A model generated the notes under the pieces. It searched no databases and was not told where the DNA came from. It was given only the letters and a program-made list of their open reading frames with translations. Of a DNA stretch of 64,000 nt, positions 42,320 to 63,440 are shown one piece after another. Numbering within the stretch: position 1 is the stretch's first letter; the number at the start of each line of letters is the position of its first letter. This DNA comes from Asterias amurensis (lineage: Eukaryota; Echinodermata; Asteroidea; Forcipulatida; Asteriidae): contig NC_092657.1 in the NCBI RefSeq assembly GCF_032118995.1, forward strand, positions 14,304,181-14,368,180, written 5' to 3'. The position numbers and the translations under genes are program-made.

Positions 42320-43532
42320 CTACATATGAATTGACGGTACCGGCTTGTCATGGTTCGATTTGCTTTCTGAGAGGTCTGAGTTTAATGTGTCTAAACACTT
42401 CACATTCATTGTGCGTTTGCTTGCAGATATCTTCTGGCTCTTAGTTCGTTGTTCTGTAATGGACGTATAGAGAGTGTAGAGGTAAGGGTTCAATGACGAG
42501 TTGATAGGGAGAATAAAGACCACGATCCAGGCATACATGTCCGGACCGATCACAACGGTGCCAGTCTGTGACAGGATCCCCATCACGATGACCGGCATCC
42601 AACAGGCGAAGTCAGTCCCGACAATAACCGCCATTTTGATCGCCATTTTAATTTCCCGTTCACGGTGTGCGGCAACGCGGACCTTATCCGCAGTGCGCTT
42701 GACCCTGACGAAGATTGCAATGTAGCAGATGAACACCACTAAGAAACAAACGAGGTTGACCCCGAGAAAGAGGATGATAGAGAAGATCCAAGCTGGCTTC
42801 TGCCCCGTCCCAATAGGAATCGACACCGTCTGGCTACCGAGGGGGTTATCAATAGCGCCCTCTTTGAGCAGGAAATCAGTCGGTTTGGTGATGAGCGGTA
42901 GACCAATACATACATCAGATAAGCCGTATATATCCGAGTCCGAACCACGAATAAAGACCGTAGGTCCAATACTAAGCCCCAGTGCTATTGACCAGAGGAG
43001 CAGGACCATAAATATTGTCGACTTCCTCCTTAGCCTCCACCTACTGAATGGATGGACTATACTGATGAAGCAGTCGACACTTATCAATGTGACGATGAAA
43101 ACAGATGCCTCGCTCGACATGACAGACAACACACCGGCTATTTGGCAGACCACAGTCGATCTCCACTGTTTGGCGATCTGCGAGTAACCCTCCCCGTAGT
43201 ATACATCAGCCCCTGCTATGATCAGCATGTATACCCCCATCATGAAATCGGACACAGCAAGACCAAGCACCATGATGGACCGGCTTACCCGGGATGGGTG
43301 GTTGTGTGATTTCCTATCGCATGACTCTTTTATTCTCTGAATTATGACCACTGCGTTGCCGATAAGAGCACTCAGGCCTAGAACCCACATCGAGACACGT
43401 AGTAATGTATTCTGCATCAGACTGCCGCATAGGTTCAATGGAGGTTGTAACTCAGTCGTCTCGCATGAAGACTCCTTGAAATTCGTTAACGATTTCACGA
43501 ATTCACAGCAGAGTCGGTAGTCGTCAACATAC
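42320..43532 (-). CDS. Receptor exon 14: 7TM domain and cytoplasmic tail
   Basis: The acceptor is ATCACAG|G; the leading G completes a Leu codon from exon 13. It opens with the post-LRR hinge '[11 protein letters not shown]', typical of type C LGRs, then '[20 protein letters not shown]' into TM1. TM2 contains '[16 protein letters not shown]'. TM3 ends '[15 protein letters not shown]' with Cys in place of the DRY arginine. TM4 contains '[15 protein letters not shown]'. TM5 has '[16 protein letters not shown]'. TM6 is '[20 protein letters not shown]' and TM7 '[18 protein letters not shown]'. A serine/lysine-rich tail of about 50 residues ends 'PVPSIHM'. A single exon for the whole 7TM part is normal in this family. 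Confidence 0.93.

Positions 43533-63440: not shown

Follow-up and report, generated by a model that had tools for sequence, protein, structure and literature searches.

The relaxin receptors RXFP1 and RXFP2 comprise a single LDLa module ahead of the LRR, a long LDLa-LRR linker (25-32 residues in the accessible part of PMC4561518) and no CUB domain; according to the same portion of that source, the LDLa module is required for activation and may serve as a tethered ligand, and peptide binding falls to the LRR. GRL101, from Lymnaea and ambulacrarians, combines a class A seven-transmembrane (7TM) domain and LRRs with several to many LDLa modules. In the available text of Veenstra 2021 (PMC8286064) it consists of LDLa and LRR only, 'cub' occurring solely in a reference; one GRL101 is reported per ambulacrarian species studied, and positively charged surfaces are given as the typical LDLa ligands. 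CUB and LDL domains are found together on type-C LGRs from the sea anemone Nematostella and the placozoan Trichoplax, which also display LRRs, a type-C 7TM and fibronectin type II domains, a comparison made by description, the module order being absent from the accessible text (PMC9545775). In addition, the portions available of other sources include (i) a GRL101-like transcript with six LDLa modules, raised in sensory tentacles, with no 'cub' counted in that text (PMC6267866); and (ii) amphioxus (PMC2246102) and Ciona (PMC2396169) GPCRs, among them adhesion GPCRs bearing CUB and LDLa, and LDLa receptors that lack CUB. GRL101 and CUB domain are listed together for one further paper (PMC7217437). 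CUB, LDL and GRL101 are absent from the COTS olfactory GPCR paper (PMC5442662) and from the holothurian GPCR paper (PMC7042368), where LRR occurs once, in the references.

The window, the whole stretch of 64,000 nucleotides of Asterias amurensis DNA that was analysed (C10:14304181-14368180 of a 491.5-Mb, 23-contig assembly), holds the 3' part (953 residues) of a receptor gene, one of several copies on contig C10. Its core is that of a type-C LGR; compared to GRL101, CUB domains alternate with the LDLa modules, and the arginine at position 3.50 is lost. The gene comprises fourteen exons on the minus strand, from 63440-63330 down to 43532-42320:

63330-63440, minus strand: E1, LDLa module, phase 1-1 (PF00057, 2.3e-7 alone)
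61391-61622, minus strand: E2, first part of CUB1 (CUB1 alone, PF00431, 4.5e-13)
60341-60456, minus strand: E3, second part of CUB1 (exon join, Pfam; nucleotide-identical in both sister copies)
59441-59542, minus strand: E4, probable decayed LDLa (LDLa*), a four-cysteine linker (no Pfam hit; true LDLa there in five same-clade relatives)
57952-58308, minus strand: E5, CUB2 in a single exon (PF00431, 3.2e-8 alone)
56183-56305, minus strand: E6, LDLa module (exon join; own profile on homologue P0001)
52095-52211, minus strand: E7, LRR-proximal LDLa (own profile on P0001; matches LDLa of TMPRSS6, LDLR and relaxin receptors)
50776-50896, minus strand: E8, LRR N-terminal cap (exon join, Pfam)
49929-50000, minus strand: E9, LRR exon of 72 nt, phase 2-2 (exon join, Pfam)
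48722-48793, minus strand: E10, LRR exon of 72 nt (exon join, Pfam)
48267-48338, minus strand: E11, LRR exon of 72 nt (exon join, Pfam)
47221-47292, minus strand: E12, LRR exon of 72 nt (exon join, Pfam)
45779-45862, minus strand: E13, LRR exon of 84 nt (exon join)
42320-43532, minus strand: E14, hinge, 7TM domain (DCF for DRY; NPYLY kept), C-terminal tail and stop (exon join, Pfam, 7TM alignment)

The joined exons amount to 2864 nt and 953 codons with a single terminal stop, the other two frames containing 58 and 63 stops, and GT-AG borders occur in 13 of the 13 introns between E1 and E14. Phase-1 introns flank the LDLa exons and the CUB2 exon, CUB1 is interrupted once, in phase 2, and the LRR exons are of phase 2-2. 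The preliminary description had proposed fourteen exons in phase encoding about 953 residues, which the codon count, the GT-AG introns and the stop-filled alternative frames confirm, and a mixed LDLa, CUB and LRR ectodomain on one type-C-LGR-like echinoderm GPCR, which is borne out by Pfam and the exon joins. A chance open frame is ruled out by the length of the 953-codon frame and by an exon order common to four paralogue regions and to proteins of other starfish and a brittle star. The E6-E7 intron houses a trinucleotide (CTA/ATT) microsatellite of about 1.8 kb (approximately 53226-55070, read by eye) and, on the minus strand at 55128-56042, a reverse transcriptase fragment (RVT_1, 2.8e-7), a retroelement remnant. 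Repeated tRNA-like stretches with inverted copies, resembling by eye a tRNA-derived SINE, lie near 43830-43900, 44050-44125 and 62390-62480, and a separate gene with pieces of PAN and fibrinogen C-terminal domains occupies 9650-11404 on the minus strand.

The 7TM exon E14 has 35 DNA match places in the genome, 30 on C10 and 5 on C12. By tblastn of the exon products, four further regions of C10 preserve the exons in window order, including (i) P2, at 14.83 Mb, with 14 of 14; (ii) P3, at 15.28 Mb, with 14 of 14; (iii) P4, at 6.42 Mb, with 11 of 14; and (iv) P5, at 5.19 Mb, with 12 of 14; P2 and P3 display AG/GT borders at all 14 exons and an open frame. The Nei-Gojobori dN/dS is 0.07 for window-P2, 0.17 for window-P3 and 0.19 for P2-P3; the same pairs give 0.12, 0.27 and 0.32 for both CUBs together, and 0.00, 0.08 and 0.10 for E14, where the window copy and P2 are separated by 19 synonymous and 0 non-synonymous changes. 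The CUB counts, set against the synonymous-site share, depart from neutrality (binomial P 0.008, 8.6e-5 and 1.0e-3), and considered jointly the CUB exons show purifying selection; CUB1 alone, for window-P2, has a dN/dS of 0.60, but its 1 synonymous and 2 non-synonymous changes are not enough for a judgement. When P3 serves as outgroup, the changed codons number 19 synonymous and 4 non-synonymous in the window lineage and 11 and 4 in that of P2, and a further 3 synonymous ones could not be assigned to either lineage. Purifying selection on the window copy could in part reflect, or be mimicked by, gene conversion between copies.

The exon order kept in four paralogue regions, the frame open through 14 exons in P2 and P3 and the selection on the CUBs show the predicted LDLa/CUB modules, the LRR with its directly preceding LDLa and the class A 7TM to be one conserved coding unit under selection, the exon joins themselves being founded on conservation and public gene models. 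That two adjoining genes, one encoding an LDLa/CUB protein and the other an LRR-7TM receptor, were joined by eye is ruled out, with a negligible residual chance, by conserved order (at five loci), conserved phases (in three) and selection, and runs counter to the single gene models across several species.

In the joined protein, Pfam recognises LRR_8 (1.3e-24), 7tm_1 (6.5e-24), CUB (1.5e-20) and Ldl_recept_a (1.5e-8); CUB1 and CUB2 each lie above the Pfam cut-off alone, as do two Ldl_recept_a stretches, and in the homologue P0001 profiles built in this analysis recognise the modules that correspond to E1, E6 and E7. E4 has no match in the Pfam scan and, given a normal LDLa at that position in P0016-P0018, P0022 and P0104, is best read as a decayed LDLa. 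The class A 7TM core (7tm_1), the LRR ectodomain joined to it and the LDLa modules N-terminal to the LRR are those of a type C LGR. Many LDLa modules and about six LRRs are present, as in GRL101 (type C2): three LDLa modules occur in the window and two intact ones in the flank, with about 10 further upstream positions in P2, including that of E1, and the LRR count is taken from exons E8-E13, of which Pfam and our own profiles recognise fewer. RXFP1 and RXFP2 share the LDLa ahead of the LRR and a related 7TM, PDB 7tmw being the best solved sequence match, but differ from this gene, where the LDLa is not single and about 3 residues separate E7 from the LRR cap. An adhesion GPCR is ruled out by the absence of GAIN/GPS from the Pfam scan of the 953-residue protein, in which neither GAIN/GPS nor 7tm_2 appears at E up to 1. 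ADGRG6 (GPR126), of the adhesion class, is likewise a GPCR with CUB, and 6v55 is among the CUB matches, but it has neither an LRR nor a class A core. The C-terminal cytoplasmic tail, read by eye in translation, contains no NPxY, the cytoplasmic endocytosis motif of LRP-type receptors.

The best PDB sequence matches of the 7TM part are RXFP1 and TSHR, and the hinge aligns loosely with RXFP1. The ectodomain matches LRP2, enteropeptidase and cubilin. For E7 the PDB matches are TMPRSS6 (3.9e-6), an LDLR/RXFP1 chimera (2.5e-5), LDLR (9.7e-5), RXFP2 (1.0e-4) and RXFP1 (1.6e-3), and its likeness to relaxin receptors is weak, since TMPRSS6 ranks above all the others; E6 has weak LDLR matches only. An AlphaFold2 model of P0001, from the 40-row alignment A1, has a mean pLDDT of 80.6 and a pTM of 0.60, with pLDDT falling under 50 at the ends and over residues 246-250, within the decayed LDLa, and lying at 57-72 around residues 821-870 in the 7TM. 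Foldseek places TSHR and FSHR first for the receptor part, followed by LGR4 and LHCGR, with RXFP1 at rank 39, and returns neuropilins, PCPE-1, C1s, MASPs and cubilin for the CUB part; TM-scores over the query lie at 0.10-0.34, a low range to be expected when modules are strung out.

Three protein searches yielded 298 listed proteins (7,995 candidates scored; the best 120 of 265; 7,982 scored, the best 120 of 304), nearly all of them gene models. The closest among the matches listed is P0001, 'uncharacterized protein [Asterias amurensis]', which covers 100% of the query at 99% identity and follows the sister copy P2, not the window copy, where those differ; P0002-P0011 show 48-58% identity to the window protein. 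Our own profiles were built from the window gene together with its paralogues and P0002-P0004, and they record too few LRRs and pass over degenerate CUBs; they detect CUB, LDLa and 7TM in 88 of the 298 listed proteins, 82 of which also carry LRR, with CUB-LDLa-LDLa-LRR ahead of the 7TM in at least 55 of the 82. In four proteins checked with Pfam, all four domain types are likewise found, in differing copy numbers. The array of the window gene, LDLa-CUB-(LDLa or none recognised)-CUB-LDLa-LDLa-LRR, occurs in at least 40 of the 298, from Asterias, Patiria and Acanthaster, with five from the brittle star Amphiura, under the database labels 'uncharacterized', 'GRL101-like' or 'CUB and sushi domain-containing'. 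An array of six CUB and eleven LDLa modules is shared by P0106, from Patiria, and P0107, from A. rubens, and P0114 has eleven CUBs by our own profiles; P0106 is a relative that retains Arg3.50.

Echinoderm CUB-LDLa array receptors thus exist as database models, and the suspicion that similar unannotated ones reside in other echinoderm genomes proved correct, examples being 'uncharacterized protein LOC119725387 [Patiria miniata]' and 'GRL101-like [Asterias rubens]'. The arrangement had also been called unfamiliar from described relaxin-type receptors; this stands in so far as no description of echinoderm CUB-LDLa array LGRs was found in the open-licence literature, supplements aside, and falls in so far as at least 40 listed proteins share it. 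An arrangement without precedent anywhere is ruled out by those proteins together with the CUB on type-C LGRs in PMC9545775, as far as its accessible text describes them.

A second type of receptor, with domains taken from precomputed annotation (P0125 and P0203 were also scanned with Pfam), likewise has CUB, LDLa, LRR and 7TM, but places the CUB far upstream of about six LDLa modules and adds one or more of F5/8C, C-type lectin, EGF, kringle or ApeC. These giant mosaic LGRs (about 1.8-2.8 kaa; examples are P0203, P0125 and P0140) are found in molluscs, a nemertean, an annelid, sea urchins, a sea cucumber, a brittle star and starfish, and LGRs with F5/8C and C-type lectin are apparently an old receptor type that echinoderms share with protostomes. 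P0125 (sea urchin), P0140 and P0136 (starfish) are mosaics of 2.4-2.7 kaa with F5/8C, C-type lectin, EGF, CUB and LDLa, kringle being present in P0125 and P0140. P0203 (Mizuhopecten, scanned) and other bivalve proteins with PF16977 are GRL101-like, with ApeC, F5/8C, CUB, LDLa, LRR and 7TM; ApeC (apextrin C-terminal) proteins are known from invertebrate immunity. P0210, of 2377 aa, comes from a source whose longest contig has 7,353 bases, so that it must lie on an almost intronless contig such as a transcript, which bears on the second type only.

Position 63440, initially taken as the ectodomain start, is not one, as LDLa and CUB-like exons run on past the right window edge. In the right flank of the window copy, two LDLa exons lie at window-equivalent 66717-66607 and 72352-72242, with a CUB-like exon near 65463-65080; the starfish relatives measure about 1.5-2.2 kaa. 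P2 and P3 have a much longer upstream array, in which the LDLa and CUB-like exons seem to form two tandem blocks (P2, L012-L015; P3, L016-L019); block duplication may therefore have enlarged the ectodomain. Near 64.5 kb the window copy contains a further LDLa exon that is interrupted by an in-frame stop and has lost its donor, whereas P2 and P3 keep this exon intact. Repeat-like matches aside, the DNA stretches of more than 250 bases that resemble P2 and P3 at 85% or above end near 72.57 kb, and over the 41 kb from 72.4 to 114 kb eight upstream protein queries from the sister copies and Patiria P0003 gave, as sole match, 12 residues at E 0.038; a first exon or signal peptide of the window copy was not found in the flank searched up to 114 kb. 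With one dead upstream exon, and the farther 5' exons of the sister copies missing from those 41 kb, the window copy may be a 5'-truncated duplicate, non-functional itself within a functional family. The end of sister-copy similarity and the near-empty queries lend this some weight, yet we judge it somewhat less probable than its opposite: E1-E14 are intact, the window lineage shows the 19 to 4 excess of synonymous codons, the dead exon is of phase 1-1, so that skipping it leaves the frame intact, the copy may have a new first exon or a very long intron, and one of the eight queries is a distant Patiria sequence whose absence says little.

The 7TM domains were compared in a quick 170-row tree (SH-aLRT), comprising 167 of the 298 proteins, hand-chosen among named source species, together with the window protein, RXFP1 and TSHR; two further proteins were dropped as over-long. 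The window protein falls in a 22-row starfish clade (99) inside a 35-row starfish clade (99), and 15 rows of the former, included in a careful 67-row tree of a hand-picked subset, form a clade there (100/99). The 170-row tree flags long-branch joins of RXFP1 with tunicates and ctenophores, and the trees lack Lymnaea GRL101. Arg3.50, the middle position of DRY, is absent in 22 of the 22 rows (two of which, the window protein and P0001, are identical in the 7TM), where the motif reads DCF, DSF, DCL, NCF, NCL or SCC; at the same site RXFP1 has EKY and TSHR has ERW. Among the other 148 rows a single one is without Arg or Lys there, the Mytilus protein P0251, a mussel LGR with DCY and an independent loss, and parsimony counts two changes; P0203, P0125 and P0140 lie outside these 23 rows. 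Within the genome itself, the 8 best of the 35 match places all read DCF, seven without a stop in the exon and the eighth, L008 (G000:C10:11187569-11188569), with one, possibly a pseudogene. NPxxY is kept (NPYLY in the window gene), as is CWMP in P0001. The clade-wide loss of Arg3.50 is the most surprising result and the part worth following, and, read from the alignment, it suggests altered G-protein coupling across this starfish subclade.

A comparable loss occurs in C5L2/C5aR2, which has DLC at this site; the accessible part of PMC2697321 reports no productive G-protein coupling, calls it a recycling decoy and describes raised G-alpha-16 coupling with Arg at this place. By analogy, the starfish protein could be a decoy or endocytic receptor, a reading in keeping with the matches of its LDLa modules to LRP2 and of its CUBs to enteropeptidase and cubilin, and with the strong purifying selection on a 7TM exon that has lost Arg3.50. 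We nevertheless regard it as unlikely, as NPxxY is also altered in C5aR2 (in the same part of PMC2697321) but intact here, and the cytoplasmic tail is devoid of the LRP-type motif.

On the other hand, the type-C LGR anatomy and the retained NPxxY and CWMP (the latter in P0001) would suit an ordinary GRL101 (type C2) hormone receptor, whose LRR would bind an insulin/IGF- or relaxin-like peptide, the array adding affinity and the loss of Arg3.50 being tolerated; Veenstra 2021, in the available text of PMC8286064, puts forward IGF as ligand for GRL101 and basic tails as the parts that bind the LDLa repeats. This appears rather doubtful, though less so than a decoy, given a whole starfish clade without Arg3.50, the 30 of 35 match places on one contig, which would be unusual for a hormone receptor, and the single GRL101 per ambulacrarian species in that text, from which it follows that the starfish family is not Veenstra's receptor as drawn.

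The best explanation of the whole, which we consider probable, is a type-C-LGR-like starfish receptor encoded as one conserved unit, in a starfish subclade that lacks Arg3.50. The mechanism behind it, taken as a whole and drawn by analogy, is put forward tentatively, its chances being well short of even. The long LDLa/CUB array, probably calcium-dependent, would capture a large or basic extracellular protein or a glycan-bearing ligand and hand it to the LRR; the LRR-proximal LDLa or the hinge would then act on the 7TM, much as in relaxin receptors. Array capture and the LDLa/LRR relay are suggested by the RXFP activation literature (PMC4561518, in part) and by the charge of LDLa ligands (PMC8286064, in part), and the missing LDLa-LRR linker speaks against the RXFP mechanism being repeated to the letter. 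With Arg3.50 gone, G-protein coupling would be weaker or altered, and arrestin and internalisation the likelier response.

A bolder and decidedly improbable extension is that starfish multiplied GPCR-shaped scavenger receptors, with cargo binding by LDLa and CUB, an ancestral loss of Arg3.50 and signalling mainly through arrestin and internalisation; if true, this class would perhaps clear or sense large proteins, yolk or microbial material, not one hormone. Echinoderm type-C LGRs are treated as a few hormone receptors in the available portions of PMC8286064 and PMC11863921. The sequences compared here display a large LDLa/CUB-array family, of which one starfish contig carries several intact copies and one clade has lost the DRY arginine throughout, and provide natural material for asking how a class A receptor functions without Arg3.50 and which ligands are brought to an LGR by a cubilin/LRP-like ectodomain.
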